DNA of 50,335 nucleotides from Clostridiales bacterium. Its GTDB lineage: Bacteria > Bacillota > Clostridia > Oscillospirales > Oscillospiraceae. Positions within the stretch are counted from its first letter, which is position 1; each line of letters opens with the position of its first letter. The DNA lies in contig JAAYOP010000142.1 in NCBI GenBank assembly GCA_012520295.1, forward strand, positions 1 to 50,335, in the 5' to 3' direction. Below the pieces are notes generated by a model. The model was not told where the DNA came from. It made no database searches and was given only the letters and a program-made list of their open reading frames with translations. A program made the position numbers and the translations under genes. This document shows, piece by piece, positions 44,816 to 50,335 of this stretch.

Positions 44816-46840
44816 ATGAAGCTTGGCATAGGCATAGACACCGGCGGGACCTATACGGATGCCGTGATATATGATTTTGACTCAAATTCCGTGCTCTGCT
44901 CCGGAAAGGCGCTTACCACGAAGCATGATCTTTCCATAGGCATCGGAAATGCTTTGGATGCTCTTGACCCGGACCTTTTGCACCGGGCAAAGGTCATCTC
45001 TCTGTCCACAACCCTGGCCACCAATGCATGCGTAGAGGGCAAGGGGGGCCGGGCAAAGCTCCTTTTCATCGGAATAGACGAGGGAACGATAGAGCGGGTG
45101 GGCAAAAGCTATGGGTTCAGAAATAATGGCGAGCTCTATTGCCTGGACGCGGAGGGCAGCTTTGACGGCTCTGTGGTCCCCAGCCCCGACTGGGACAGGC
45201 TGCTCTCGGATATTCAGGAGTGGCTGAAGGACGCGGAGGGGTTGGGAATAGTCGAGCGTTATGCGATGAAAAACGGTGCCGCCGCGGAAAAGATGGCTAA
45301 AAGGCTGTTTTCTGAGCGATATGATATACCCATCATAATGGGAAGCGAGCTGTTTTCCGGCCTCAACTCGGTCCAGAGGGGAGCAGGCACTCTTCTCAAT
45401 GCCAGACTGATTCCCATTATTAAGGATTTCCTGTCCTCTATAAAAAAAGCCCTTATCCTGAGAAAAATAAAGGCACCGGTAATAATCGTCAGGAGCGACG
45501 GCAGTCTTATGAGCGAGGAATTTTCCGTGCTGCGTCCCGTTGAGACCATTCTTTGCGGGCCGGCTTCCAGCGTAATGGGCGGAATGAAGCTTTCCGGACG
45601 CGGCGACTGCGTGATAGTGGATATGGGCGGCACCACTACGGATGTTTCCCTTGTAAAGGACGGTATACCCGTAAAGGCCCACAACGGCATAAGCATAGGA
45701 GGCTGGAAAACCTTTGTCAGGGGGGTTTATATAGATACTTTCGGATTGGGCGGTGACAGTGCCATATGGCCCCAATCAAAAAGCCTTGTTATTGACAGCA
45801 GGCGCGTGATTCCCATTTCCCTCCTTGTGCAAAACCACCCTGAAATACTGGGCGAGCTTGAAGAGCTGTTGAAAGAAAAGTCAGGACATACCAAACCCAT
45901 ATACGAGTTTTACTGCCTTGTACGTGATATAACGGAAAACGAAGGCTATACCGAAAAGGAGCGGGCATTTTGCAGAGCCCTTAAAAACAGGCCCCTGATC
46001 CTCAGGCAGGCCGCAGAGTCAGCGGGTACTGATGTTTACAGACTGGATATGGAGCGGCTGGAGGCAGAAGGTGTGGTGCTCAGAGCCGGGCTAACCCCTA
46101 CGGACATAATGCATATAAAGGGCGAATTTTCCTCCTATAACACCGAGGGGGCAAGGCTGGCAGCCAGATATGTGCTCAAGTGCCTGGGCCTTGACGACGG
46201 CGATGAAGGCGAACTGATGAAGCTGTGCAATATGATATATGACAAGGTCAAGCTGAAGCTTTACTCAAACCTTGTCCGCATATTGCTCAGGGATAAATAT
46301 CCAGACATAATAAAAGACGGTCCCGATGCCCAGCTGAGCAAGCTGATATCGAAAAGCTGGGAGGACTCAAAGAGCGGAAAAGTTCCGTATTTCTCACAGC
46401 TGTTTAAAACGAAGGCGGCCCTTGTGGGCATCGGCGCCCCGACACATATTTTTTTGCCGGATGTGGCAAAGGCCCTGGGAACGGAATGGATCATACCTGA
46501 AAACGCCGGTGTTGCCAACGCTGTCGGCGCGATAGTAGGAAATATAACCGTTACCGCCCAAGTGGAGGTGCGCCCCAATTATACACCCGGCGGCATAACA
46601 GGCTATACGGTACACAGCGCCTCGACAAATTACACAACAAAGGGGAAAGAGGACGCTTTGGAAATAGCCCTGGAAGAGGCAAAAAAACAGGCCCTTGAGG
46701 AGGCAAAAAAGCGGGGCATCGCTGGAGACATAAAGCTGGATACCCGGATAGTTTCAATGACCGGAACCGCCGCTAACGATACGACTCTTGATCTGGGAAA
46801 TCAGGTCATAGCCACAGCTATCGGCGGGATTATGCTCTAG
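44816..46840 (+). CDS. Hydantoinase/5-oxoprolinase family protein (674 aa)
   Basis: ASKHA-type ATP-binding core: GIGIDTGGTYTDAVIYD (phosphate 1), a VDMGGTTTDVSLVKDG second loop, and LCGPASSVMGG. The N-terminal and central parts match hydantoinase A / oxoprolinase A chains, which hydrolyse cyclic amides with ATP. No B subunit is adjacent, so the substrate and partner are unknown; the C-terminus carries a charged coiled region (KEDALEIALEEAKKQALEEA). AAGGGA precedes the ATG. Confidence 0.85.
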   Translation: MKLGIGIDTGGTYTDAVIYDFDSNSVLCSGKALTTKHDLSIGIGNALDALDPDLLHRAKVISLSTTLATNACVEGKGGRAKLLFIGIDEGTIERVGKSYGFRNNGELYCLDAEGSFDGSVVPSPDWDRLLSDIQEWLKDAEGLGIVERYAMKNGAAAEKMAKRLFSERYDIPIIMGSELFSGLNSVQRGAGTLLNARLIPIIKDFLSSIKKALILRKIKAPVIIVRSDGSLMSEEFSVLRPVETILCGPASSVMGGMKLSGRGDCVIVDMGGTTTDVSLVKDGIPVKAHNGISIGGWKTFVRGVYIDTFGLGGDSAIWPQSKSLVIDSRRVIPISLLVQNHPEILGELEELLKEKSGHTKPIYEFYCLVRDITENEGYTEKERAFCRALKNRPLILRQAAESAGTDVYRLDMERLEAEGVVLRAGLTPTDIMHIKGEFSSYNTEGARLAARYVLKCLGLDDGDEGELMKLCNMIYDKVKLKLYSNLVRILLRDKYPDIIKDGPDAQLSKLISKSWEDSKSGKVPYFSQLFKTKAALVGIGAPTHIFLPDVAKALGTEWIIPENAGVANAVGAIVGNITVTAQVEVRPNYTPGGITGYTVHSASTNYTTKGKEDALEIALEEAKKQALEEAKKRGIAGDIKLDTRIVSMTGTAANDTTLDLGNQVIATAIGGIML

Positions 46841-47004: not shown

Positions 47005-48921
47005 TCATTTCCTCTTAAATCCCTTTTCAATCTGGAGCTTTGTCAGGTCCATTGTGACAGGCCTGCCGTGGGGGCAGTATTTGACCTTTCCGGCCATGAC
47101 CTTCTCAATCAGGCTCCTGCGCTCCAGAGGGTCGGAGGACTTTCCTATCTTTACCGCCGCCTTGCAGGCCATGGTGCTCAGAATCTCGTCCCTCACCCCG
47201 AGGCTTCCGGGACGGTCGCCCTGAGAGATGCTTTTGCACAGCTCGCCTAAAAGGGCCGGAAGATCCTCCGTATCCATATCCGCGGGAAGCCGCCTTACCA
47301 AAACCGTGCCGCCTCCAAAATCCTCTATCTCAAAACCGAGAGGTTCAAATATGTCGGAACTGTCCAGCAGCAGAGCCGCGTCCTCCCTGCCCACATCAAC
47401 CGTAACAGGCTCCAGCAAAAACTGGGACATTTCTTCCCTTTGGCCGGATTTTAACCTGTCGAATATCAAGCGCTCATGGGCTGCATGCTTGTCTACAAAT
47501 ATCAGCCGGTCTTCCGTCTCCACTATGATATATCCGGAAAATACCTCGCCGACAATCTTAAAGTCCGGGGTTTCATCCGCCTCAGCTTCCTCAGCGGCAG
47601 ATGCGCCGCCCAGGGGCAGCCTTTCCTGCACATATTCGACTGCGGGCAATAGAGACTCTTCCTCATGGACCTCGGCCTTTGCAGCCGGGCTCTGGGACGC
47701 TTCTCTTAAGGAAGTCTTGGGGGCACAGGGTCTTGCATCTTCAGTCCCCGTTTTCTCTCCCCGCGCTACGGGTACCTCCGGTTCCGCCGTGGGCTTCGCT
47801 CCTGAGCCGTATCCGGCAACGGGAGTTTTAAAGACCCGTCCCTTTAAATACTCTTCCGCCGTTAAAGTCCTATAGTCGCCGTTTTGGATCTCGGCCGGTT
47901 CCGGTTCATTGATAATATACCTGTCGGGAAGTCCCTGGGCCTCAAGAGCTGATTTTACCGCATAATATACGCAGTTAAAGACCTCCCTCTCATTTAAAAA
48001 TCTCACTTCGATTTTTGCAGGATGAACATTGACGTCCACAGCGCCAGGCTTTACATTTAAATATAAAACGCAGCCCGGGTATCTTCCGGAGGGAAGATTG
48101 TTTTTATATCCCCGCTCCAGGGCAGCCTGAAGAAGCTGGGACTTTACATACCTGCCGTTAACATACATATACTGGGCGCTCCTGTTTCCCCTGGCCGCGT
48201 CCGGCGAGGTTATGTACCCGTTTACAGAAACCGTCTCGCCTTCGCTCTCGATATGCATAAGCCCCTTTGAGAAATCTCTTCCCAGAAGGGTATATATACA
48301 GGAGCGTATATCCCCATCTCCGGGGGTAACCGCTTCCTCCTTGCCATCTCTTATATATCTGAAAGCCACCTCTGGATGGGACAGGGCAATGCGAAACACG
48401 ACTGCGGTCACATTGGCGGCCTCGGCACTGTCCTTTTTCATGAATTTCAGCCTGGCAGGAGTGTTAAAGAACAAATCTCTGACAATAACAGTTGTTCCCC
48501 GGGGACAGCCCACCGGCGAGGTTTCTGTTATCTCTCCGGCCTCAACGGTCATGGCGGCCCCCTCCGTGCTGTCCTCCTCCCTGGTGAGCAGCTCAATGCG
48601 GGAAACCGACGAAATGGCCGCAAGAGCCTCACCCCTGAAGCCCAGGGTATGGATTGCCTCCAGATCCCTCTCTTCTTTCAGCTTGCTGGTGGCATGGCGC
48701 AAAAAAGCAAGCCCGGCGTCCTCTTTGGACATACCCGAGCCGTTGTCGCTCACCCTTATATAACTCATGCCGCCGTTTTGTATCTCGATTGTTATTGAGG
48801 TAGCCCCGGCGTCAATAGAGTTTTCAACCAGCTCCTTAACAACGGAGCCGGGCCTTTCCACCACCTCACCCGCCGCGATCATATCCGCCAGCTGAGGCGG
48901 AAGCATGTGTATTTTCCGCAT
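47005..48921 (-). CDS. mutL: DNA mismatch repair protein MutL (638 aa)
   Basis: GHKL ATPase domain: AAGEVVERPGSVVKELVENSIDAGA, SDNGSGM, and TLGFRGEALAAISSVS. After a Pro/Glu/Ala-rich linker (about 360-450), the C-terminal dimerisation domain contains DKHAAHERLIFDRLK, a form of the DQHAAHERI motif associated with metal-dependent nicking, and ends CPHGRPVTMDLT. No mutS is adjacent in the window. It starts 56 nt after the racemase-like gene and likely shares its promoter. ATG 48921 is favoured over 48930. Confidence 0.94.
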   Translation of the reverse strand: MRKIHMLPPQLADMIAAGEVVERPGSVVKELVENSIDAGATSITIEIQNGGMSYIRVSDNGSGMSKEDAGLAFLRHATSKLKEERDLEAIHTLGFRGEALAAISSVSRIELLTREEDSTEGAAMTVEAGEITETSPVGCPRGTTVIVRDLFFNTPARLKFMKKDSAEAANVTAVVFRIALSHPEVAFRYIRDGKEEAVTPGDGDIRSCIYTLLGRDFSKGLMHIESEGETVSVNGYITSPDAARGNRSAQYMYVNGRYVKSQLLQAALERGYKNNLPSGRYPGCVLYLNVKPGAVDVNVHPAKIEVRFLNEREVFNCVYYAVKSALEAQGLPDRYIINEPEPAEIQNGDYRTLTAEEYLKGRVFKTPVAGYGSGAKPTAEPEVPVARGEKTGTEDARPCAPKTSLREASQSPAAKAEVHEEESLLPAVEYVQERLPLGGASAAEEAEADETPDFKIVGEVFSGYIIVETEDRLIFVDKHAAHERLIFDRLKSGQREEMSQFLLEPVTVDVGREDAALLLDSSDIFEPLGFEIEDFGGGTVLVRRLPADMDTEDLPALLGELCKSISQGDRPGSLGVRDEILSTMACKAAVKIGKSSDPLERRSLIEKVMAGKVKYCPHGRPVTMDLTKLQIEKGFKRK

Positions 48922-48977
48922 ATTTACCATCCAAACAGTTTGTTATAAGCCTCAGGCGGTACTCAGAGCTTTCACAG

Positions 48978-50057
48978 TTATCTGTATACTATATCAAGTC
49001 CCTTTACCAGCCTGGGGTCACACTCTATTATAGCCTTGTCTCCTGTTGAGCAGTTTATATTGGTAATATCCACGGTAAGAGATGTCAGCCCCACCTGACC
49101 TATGGTTTTTGCCCTGACACCGTTTATTCTGATAATGGGAGAGCTGTCATTTTTAAATACTCTGTTCAGCCTGTCCCAAATATTTATACTCTCACCTGCT
49201 CCGGCCGCCGACAGGCCCACGCCGTTTGCCCAGCCTGCCGATATTACACCGATTTTTGTATTGTTTCTGAGAGTACGCACGGAGCCATAGCCCACCTTTT
49301 CACCTTTGGACATCCAGTCAATTTCCTCAATATCCGCTTCGATATAGCCTACCTTGATTAGCCCGTAATTGCCGCGGCCGGGTATCCTCCCCACTATGGC
49401 CGAACCTACACAAACCGCGTCCATCTGCTCAAAGTCATATCTGAAAAGAGCCGCTGAATCCAGGGCATGAATAACTCCCGGGTCATAACCCATATCCGAA
49501 ATTTTGTTAACAACTCTCTCAAAGCTCTCCAGCTGATTTCTTGTCATGGTTTTGCTTTTCCAGGATGCCGCCAGTCTGGTATACATTCCAGCGATGGCAA
49601 GGCCGCCCATATGCTTGTAAAGGTTGGCTATCTTGTCAGTCTCCGAGGGCATGAAGCCGAAGCCTCCAAAACCCGTGTCAATCTCGATTTTTACCTCTAT
49701 AGCAGTGCGCCTGCTTTCCGCCAGCGCGTTCAGGGCAATTCCCGCATCATAAGAGCCTACTGTGCAGGTTATACTATGGTCAACCAACTTTAAAAGCTCA
49801 TCTTTATCGGCAGTGGAGCGGAGCATCAAAATCTCCTCATGCTCAAAATTGTTCTCTCTGAGGCGTACCGCGTCGGACACCTCGGAGACCGCGAAGGAAT
49901 TTATTCCCTCCTCCCTGAGCATGGACGCGGCGGCCAGCAGTCCCATCCCCTGCCCATCGCCGCTGAGATTAGCTATTATCCTGGTATTGTCGGCGCGTCT
50001 TTTTACCTCCTGAATATTGTGCTTGACCGCCTGTTTGTCTATTATTAAAGCTTTCAC
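48978..50057 (-). CDS. Alanine-racemase-fold protein lacking PLP residues (359 aa)
   Basis: The overall fold is that of alanine racemase: an N-terminal barrel with KIEIDTGFGGFGF and a C-terminal domain with GYGSVRTL, NGVRAKTIGQVGLTSLTVDIT. But the PLP-binding Lys of the usual VxKANAYGHG is Asn30 (ANLSGDGQG), the following Tyr is Asp34, the Arg of DTGMxRLGF is Gly, and the Arg of DxVRxG is Cys (AVCVG). It should not bind PLP in the normal way. GTG 50057 is preceded by AAGGA 8 nt upstream and gives the family's usual start. Upstream of mutL. Confidence 0.85.
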   Translation of the reverse strand: MKALIIDKQAVKHNIQEVKRRADNTRIIANLSGDGQGMGLLAAASMLREEGINSFAVSEVSDAVRLRENNFEHEEILMLRSTADKDELLKLVDHSITCTVGSYDAGIALNALAESRRTAIEVKIEIDTGFGGFGFMPSETDKIANLYKHMGGLAIAGMYTRLAASWKSKTMTRNQLESFERVVNKISDMGYDPGVIHALDSAALFRYDFEQMDAVCVGSAIVGRIPGRGNYGLIKVGYIEADIEEIDWMSKGEKVGYGSVRTLRNNTKIGVISAGWANGVGLSAAGAGESINIWDRLNRVFKNDSSPIIRINGVRAKTIGQVGLTSLTVDITNINCSTGDKAIIECDPRLVKGLDIVYR

Positions 50058-50182: not shown

Positions 50183-50211
50183 ATTATATCACGCAGGGTT
50201 TAAATGTGCAA
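50183..50211 (-). promoter_or_regulatory. Promoter of the racemase-like/mutL operon
   Basis: On the minus strand: TTGCAC (50206-50211), 17-nt spacer, TATAAT (50183-50188). The -10 is perfect, the -35 is weak. Confidence 0.55.
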
Positions 50212-50315
50212 ATGTATAGTGTACAATGATATGGTCTAAAAAAAGAAGAAGCTGACCCCTAACTGTGGTAAAATGGTAAGTGCTAACAAACCAATCACAG
50301 AAAGGGATAGCTTCT

Positions 50316-50335
50316 ATGAAAAGAATAGCACAAAA
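50316..50335 (+). CDS. Start of a gene cut by the window edge, possibly transposase
   Basis: ATG at 50316 with AAAGGGA 8 nt upstream; only MKRIAQ is visible. The preceding 70 nt include GAAGCTGACCCC, reminiscent of an insertion-sequence end, but this cannot be confirmed here. Confidence 0.35.

Follow-up and report, generated by a model that had tools for sequence, protein, structure and literature searches.

What does a protein with the fold of alanine racemase (Alr) do once the lysine for pyridoxal phosphate (PLP) is gone, and why does its gene stand in front of mutL? Alr is a fold type III PLP enzyme, known both as a textbook enzyme and as a drug target. The window, by which we mean the whole 50,335-nt stretch of Clostridiales DNA analysed here, raises this question on its minus strand. 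At 48978..50057 (stop codon included) it holds a gene for a Lys-less protein of 359 residues with the alanine racemase fold, which we call a pseudo-racemase. A preliminary description of the DNA had reported an open frame in which the PLP site was erased. The frame is indeed uninterrupted and runs from a GTG start at 50057, with AAGGA upstream, to a stop codon at 48978-48980.

A promoter-like site (TTTGCA-18-TATAAT with TG; a consensus match only) is found upstream of the gene at 50183..50212 on the minus strand. It is bordered by the end of a high-copy, insertion-sequence-like repeat at 50213..50335 (no strand assigned, start approximate), inside which the contig ends, 278 nt upstream of the pseudo-racemase. 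From about 50213 onwards, the repeat has 40 listed matches in its own genome, the window's own included, and several of these are located at contig edges.

Active site of the window protein

Both Pfam domains of Alr are recognised in the window protein above their gathering scores, Ala_racemase_N (PF01168) with 137.6 bits (cut-off 24.1) and Ala_racemase_C (PF00842) with 40.7 bits (cut-off 25). The NCBIfam alr model TIGR00492 scores 150.3 bits, which is below the curated cut-off of 168. A level of about 168 bits is reached by 10 of 53 aligned family members, the window protein not among them; ten is also the number of Lys-retaining rows, although the scan does not name the members. AlphaFold, run on an alignment that included 52 of the 80 named loci introduced below, predicts an Alr fold with a mean pLDDT of 92.7 and a pTM of 0.89, with a weak region at about residues 281-300. 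The top PDB match of the model is the VanTg serine racemase (4ecl; TM 0.85, 23% identity), and the best NCBIfam score of the protein, 152.7 bits, also falls to a VanT-type model (NF033131). Unlike VanT, however, the protein is missing the catalytic residues and stays far below the NF033131 cut-off of 460. Full VanT has an extra N-terminal region, which the 359-residue window protein lacks.

Residue numbers follow Bst Alr, and columns were assigned from an alignment to T. tengcongensis Alr (4y2w) together with family alignments. Here, IIANLSGDGQGMG of the window protein aligns on IMAVIKGDAYGHG of T. tengcongensis Alr. This places Ser32 in the column of the PLP lysine, Lys39 (the codons for Leu31-Ser32-Gly33 lie at 49959..49967 on the minus strand, a position worked out from the frame). 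The preliminary description had read the lysine as replaced by Asn30 and the tyrosine by Asp34. Both assignments are two columns off; the Tyr43 column is occupied by Gln36. Its two arginine replacements hold in the alignment, where Arg136 corresponds to Gly132 and Arg219 to Cys216. Beyond these four positions, His166 is also substituted, by Arg161. The second catalytic base, Tyr265, is retained as Tyr257, and His200, Ser204 and Gly221 are retained as well. With one of six key residues kept, the window copy is among the more degraded of the family.

According to the part of PMC6411801 that deals with the Alr mechanism, the two catalytic bases are Lys39 and Tyr265, and His166 tunes Tyr265. In the portion of PMC4517790 devoted to the Alr site, the pyridine ring is held by Arg219 and Arg136 and the phosphate by Tyr43 and Ser204, while Tyr265 is contributed by the other subunit, the active site being shared across the dimer. 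Judged from the aligned residues, the PLP internal aldimine can most likely no longer form, and racemisation is hence most likely gone.

The other motifs had been described as kept. This is true of the DTGxG loop, but the C-terminal ISYE segment of canonical Alr, which L001 (the Alr of the same genome) has, is absent from the window protein and from the other family rows aligned. The resemblance to Alr comprises the fold, both Pfam domains, a stretch LSGDGQGMG at the place of the PLP-lysine loop, and the DTGxG loop. In contrast to Alr, the protein lacks Lys39, Tyr43, Arg136, His166, Arg219 and the ISYE segment.

The Lys-less subfamily and the cell's own Alr

The window protein belongs to a distinct paralogue family. 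Among 60 genomes, comprising its own and those of relatives, the family occurs in 30, as 31 full copies that all have E values of 1.2e-37 or below; not counted is G040:C110, a partial match to the C-terminal part that lies at the end of a contig. The next full-length matches are of the canonical type, at E 8e-27 and weaker. Lys39 is absent from 13 of the 31 copies and kept in 18, and a Lys-less copy is found in 13 of 37 sampled genomes of the window's own taxonomic family, roughly a third. A scan of named genomes, for which the best 80 of 516 confirmed loci were considered, recovered the family from Bacillota groups, mostly Oscillospiraceae. Among these 80 are loci of the isolates Sporobacter termitidis DSM 10068 and Flavonifractor sp. 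An10. Lys39 is absent from 70 of the 80 loci and retained in 10, which is not a frequency, because the best 80 of 516 were picked by likeness to the query. Order-wide, 97 of 245 genomes carry the family at E under 1e-60 (Lys-less and Lys-bearing copies pooled), and the copies of 40 hand-picked genomes among these were read. Since 6 of the 40 order-wide and 7 of the 31 near-relative proteins are identical to named ones, the 151 copies reduce to 138 unique proteins: 83 Lys-less, 46 intact, and 9 with Lys but without Tyr265.

The Lys39 column of the 83 Lys-less proteins holds Ser (50), Thr (31), Ala (1) or Asn (1). None of the 83 has His at the His166 position (one has a gap there), compared with one loss in the 46 intact proteins. 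This is a free observation, because the groups were defined by Lys39 and Tyr265. Tyr265 is lost from 81 of the 83 and persists as Tyr only in the window protein and its congener, a 69% identical orthologue with the same changes at Lys39, Tyr43, His166 and Arg219. Five or six of the six key residues are kept by 45 of the 46 intact proteins. Nine relatives from family f2 (L187-L190, L198-L202) keep Lys39 and the PLP site, and their Tyr265 is either deleted or changed to Thr, Ser or Gly. As a Y265A change conferred aldolase activity on a laboratory Alr (reported in the same part of PMC6411801), these nine proteins may, by analogy, be natural aldolases or one-base PLP enzymes.

In a tree from which the catalytic columns were removed, 34 Lys-less rows form one clade (99/95) that is nested among Lys-retaining rows, and the paralogue family as a whole splits from canonical Alr at 100/100. 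The housekeeping alr is not the ancestor of the pseudo-racemase, which descends from the racemase paralogue family. The Lys-less clade consists of a mutL branch, which includes the window, and a dtd branch, each called after a neighbouring gene; the latter is named after most, not all, of its members. When the f2 relatives, in which FemAB is absent, are added, they fall beside the Lys-less branches in no settled order. An AU test does not reject a single Lys-less clade, the constrained tree fitting no worse than the free one (p 0.532). The trees with the f2 relatives are compatible with a single loss of Lys39, and we rejected an independent second loss in f2 on the grounds of this placement and the AU result. 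The same two observations make a stepwise path possible, in which Tyr265 was lost before Lys39. The Tyr265 kept in the window speaks against such a path, unless it was regained.

Close family pairs have dN/dS values of 0.008-0.32, as expected under purifying selection (the pairs have 75-99.9% identity and dS below 1.6; almost all belong to the mutL branch, and none includes the window protein). An intact pair listed with them gives 0.124. Averaged over alignment columns, entropy amounts to 1.23 bits for the mutL branch and 0.93 bits for the dtd branch, versus 1.75 in the more widely sampled Lys-retaining set. These and the conservation and consensus figures below are based on 77 Lys-less and 27 Lys-retaining rows, with the 40 order-wide copies left aside.

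The preliminary description had suggested looking for another alr, and the genome does encode a canonical Alr (L001). An intact canonical alr is present in 13 of 13 Lys-less genomes of the 60-genome set, and all 21 canonical loci examined keep Lys39, Tyr43, His166, Arg219, Tyr265, Met312 and Asp313. The proposal of a selected role other than racemisation is thus supported by the 83 unique Lys-less proteins, the purifying selection among relatives and the intact alr in the same cells. The Lys-less family under selection probably has a new, non-racemase job.

The presence of the canonical enzyme poses the question whether the pseudo-racemase pairs with it as a regulatory subunit, the mixed dimer acting as a dominant inhibitor. 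Because Alr sites are shared across the dimer, as the portion of PMC4517790 mentioned above describes, such a dimer would have no Lys in one site and usually no Tyr265 in the other. A partner is at hand in all 13 Lys-less genomes checked, and regulation of a partner by a dead paralogue is known from other proteins (PMC5201418 and, for antizyme inhibitors, PMC5518511); paralogues of the prozyme type are a further parallel. We nevertheless consider this arrangement unlikely. The paralogue family lies well apart from canonical Alr, with about 22-30% identity to canonical-type copies, so that mixed dimers are not obvious, and the partner-reaching loop around Tyr265 is shortened in some members (L007, L010).

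Pocket conservation and gene neighbourhoods

Pocket and far faces were assigned by hand from the secondary structure of the predicted model. In the mutL branch, conservation is 0.806 in pocket-face loops versus 0.666 on the opposite face, a difference as large as this arising in 7 of 10000 permutations. The Lys-retaining set behaves alike (0.742 versus 0.508; 0 of 10000 permutations), and in the dtd branch the difference is not significant (0.855 versus 0.829; 2268 of 10000; 11 sequences). In part, conserved pocket loops may reflect folding needs. The near-fixed pocket-face residues of the mutL branch are Asp30 (95%), Asp200 (98%), Arg80 (98%) and Asp84 (98%), and the dtd branch keeps Arg219, Ser204 and Gly221 in 11 of 11 sequences. 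No conserved lysine was seen among the listed pocket-face positions of either Lys-less branch. A migrated Schiff-base lysine was rejected on this basis, with the faces taken from the predicted model.

The near-fixed residues of either branch would also suit a new enzyme that works without PLP, or with PLP bound non-covalently, and whose reworked pocket does different chemistry. However, Asp30 and Asp200 are not common to the dtd branch, where Val and Gly mostly take their places. The window protein itself has Asn30 and Cys216 where the mutL branch mostly has Asp and Arg, and it gives no clue to a substrate. We therefore regard a new enzyme as quite improbable; together with the regulatory subunit, it is one of the two chief rivals.

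The gene downstream of the pseudo-racemase is mutL (47005..48930, minus strand; TIGR00585, 561.8 bits). The two are separated by 47 nt, in which a consensus scan detected no minus-strand terminator-like site, and mutL is a probable operon mate. The co-transcription that had been called unexpected is therefore plausible. A role in mismatch repair is not indicated, because in the sister branch the next gene is dtd, which encodes a D-aminoacyl-tRNA deacylase (identified by PF02580). The next gene on the same strand is mutL at 61 of the 70 Lys-less named loci and dtd at 6; one locus meets the contig end, and the other two are L147 and L098, the contig of the latter stopping about 0.5 kb beyond. 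The relatives thus keep the mutL linkage, but not Asn30, for which the mutL branch mostly has Asp. The 13 Lys-less loci of the 60-genome set have mutL downstream in 7 cases, dtd in 3 and neither in 3. In the dtd branch, L147 and the copies in G013, G027 and G030 are exceptions with neither gene downstream. Seven order-wide genomes of family f1 have mutL (2) or dtd (5, at 3-102 nt) downstream and a divergent miaB upstream at 146-1468 nt; one of these copies (L169) is identical in protein to the named L121.

A divergent miaB is also found within 600 nt upstream in 52 of the 70 Lys-less named loci. In the window it cannot be seen, because the contig ends in the repeat; in the congener (G001), it lies 223 nt upstream. 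Of the four traits that mark the mutL branch, the window thus shows three, namely no Lys39, no His166 and mutL downstream. At its far end, mutL lies tail to tail with a hydantoinase/oxoprolinase-like gene (44816-46840, plus strand), a relative of which is also found a few kb from the pseudo-racemase in L035 and L075.

Taken at face value, the 61 of 70 named and 7 of 13 near-relative Lys-less loci with mutL as next gene, and the gap of 47 nt in the window, would fit a pseudo-racemase that acts as a partner of MutL in mismatch repair. Yet dtd takes this place in the sister branch, at 6 of 70 named loci, 5 of 7 in f1 and 3 of 13 near-relative loci. In ten same-family genomes that lack the gene, a divergent miaB adjoins mutL in 3 and mutS is within 0.8 kb of it in 5, and no pseudo-racemase copy was detected in the mutL stretches examined there. 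The mutS-mutL-miaA-miaB neighbourhood is itself a housekeeping one. This makes a MutL partner very improbable, and the conserved linkage is probably housekeeping synteny.

The Lys-retaining copies have a different neighbour. femX, which encodes a peptidoglycan aminoacyltransferase of the FemAB type, stands directly upstream in 10 of 10 Lys-retaining named loci versus 0 of 70 Lys-less ones. Elsewhere among the Lys-retaining relatives, the pair of femX and racemase frequently precedes genes for an Orn/Lys/Arg-decarboxylase-like protein and a cyclic-di-AMP receptor, holB and a PSP1 gene, which we take to be the yaaO-yaaQ-holB-yaaT housekeeping operon of Firmicutes. Both loci are thus housekeeping neighbourhoods, and femX is the sole specific partner seen. 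A FemAB-family gene together with a racemase paralogue forms a conserved pair in Oscillospirales (L043, L053, L054, L059, L063, L145 and others), possibly a peptidoglycan-branching module.

At the level of whole genomes, PF02388 (FemAB) accompanies 39 of the 42 intact copies, one of the 20 Lys-less copies and none of the 9 copies with Lys but without Tyr265 (G013 being counted in two classes), and it is absent from all 20 genomes searched that belong to the window's family and lack the gene. The window's own genome (G000, 96% complete) gave no FemAB match. The three intact copies without FemAB are in G013, G049 and G076, the first of which has one Lys-less and one intact copy (L021, L061). G020 is the only Lys-less genome of 20 with FemAB; there, about 58 kb separate the FemAB gene and the pseudo-racemase on one contig (C3). 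On the tree, catalytic state has to change once and FemAB five times. In a pairs test with 5 independent FemAB contrasts, 1 agrees, 0 oppose and 4 show no change, and significance is out of reach. Because of the f2 placement, the AU test and the pairs test, the loss of FemAB and the catalytic loss count as one event. The association of FemAB with catalysis is thus a single event on the tree and not statistically independent evidence.

Relatives with an intact Lys do exist, as the preliminary description had allowed, but the 10 named ones sit elsewhere, behind femX, and the reading of the window gene as just mutated does not hold in that form. A decaying or mis-assembled racemase gene might explain why the window copy is among the more degraded, with Arg219 changed to Cys, but is scarcely credible given its open frame, the congeneric orthologue with the same changes, and the relatives' purifying selection and 83 unique Lys-less proteins, the last two of which, with the separate intact alr, also led us to reject a simple mutation of alr.

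Proposed role of the pseudo-racemase

The best explanation, in which we place about half of our confidence, is that the gene encodes a Lys-less, non-racemising pseudo-racemase that serves as a pocket-binding sensor or regulator at an inherited mutL locus. It would represent an old Oscillospiraceae subfamily, derived from a FemX-linked racemase paralogue, in which the capacity for racemisation was lost. The small molecule received by the remodelled pocket would be an amino acid or a related metabolite, and the protein would have a sensory or regulatory function. Of the reasons for which the pseudo-racemase might be maintained, a ligand-binding pocket is the likeliest. Sensing of an amino acid or a cell-wall intermediate, as had been suggested from the start, is a guess with which the conserved pocket-face loops of the mutL branch are compatible. 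The mutL link would then reflect inherited gene order and shared transcription, with no function in repair.

By tree, the FemX-linked racemase paralogues of Oscillospirales are the nearest Lys-bearing relatives of the window protein, with 28-39% identity and the same shortened C-terminus. Lys39 and Tyr265 are present in them, as is His166 with rare exceptions, and most are located behind femX. In contrast, the window gene has neither Lys39 nor His166, and its genome has no FemAB match. A more specific history can be offered tentatively, with more doubt than confidence: FemX may have been lost in an Oscillospiraceae ancestor, which freed the dedicated racemase; Tyr265 (a state that survives in the f2 relatives, where Lys39 is kept) and Lys39 would have been lost next, leaving a metabolite receptor that works without PLP and, in roughly a third of the family's sampled genomes, has a housekeeping operon or a wall enzyme under its control. 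If true, this would be a bacterial regulator made from alanine racemase.

Dead enzyme paralogues are a known kind of protein. Antizyme inhibitors, which are inactive homologues of ornithine decarboxylase, and the trypanosomatid prozyme are likewise dead paralogues that their genomes retain. As noted in PMC6411801, the ornithine decarboxylase of eukaryotes has the same fold type III as Alr. Antizyme inhibitors and prozyme differ from the window protein in being eukaryotic and members of other families. No Lys-less alanine racemase family is described in the open-licence literature searched, and a broad bacterial dead paralogue derived from alanine racemase appears, within that literature and as far as searched, to be new.

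Taken together, the Lys-less subfamily warns against the label of alanine racemase, which Pfam gives to these proteins, in many gut bacteria. With its relatives it forms a natural series, from intact copies with FemX, through copies in which Lys is kept and Tyr265 lost, to those that have lost both, for how a PLP enzyme becomes something else. The analysis also draws attention to the conserved FemX-racemase pair.
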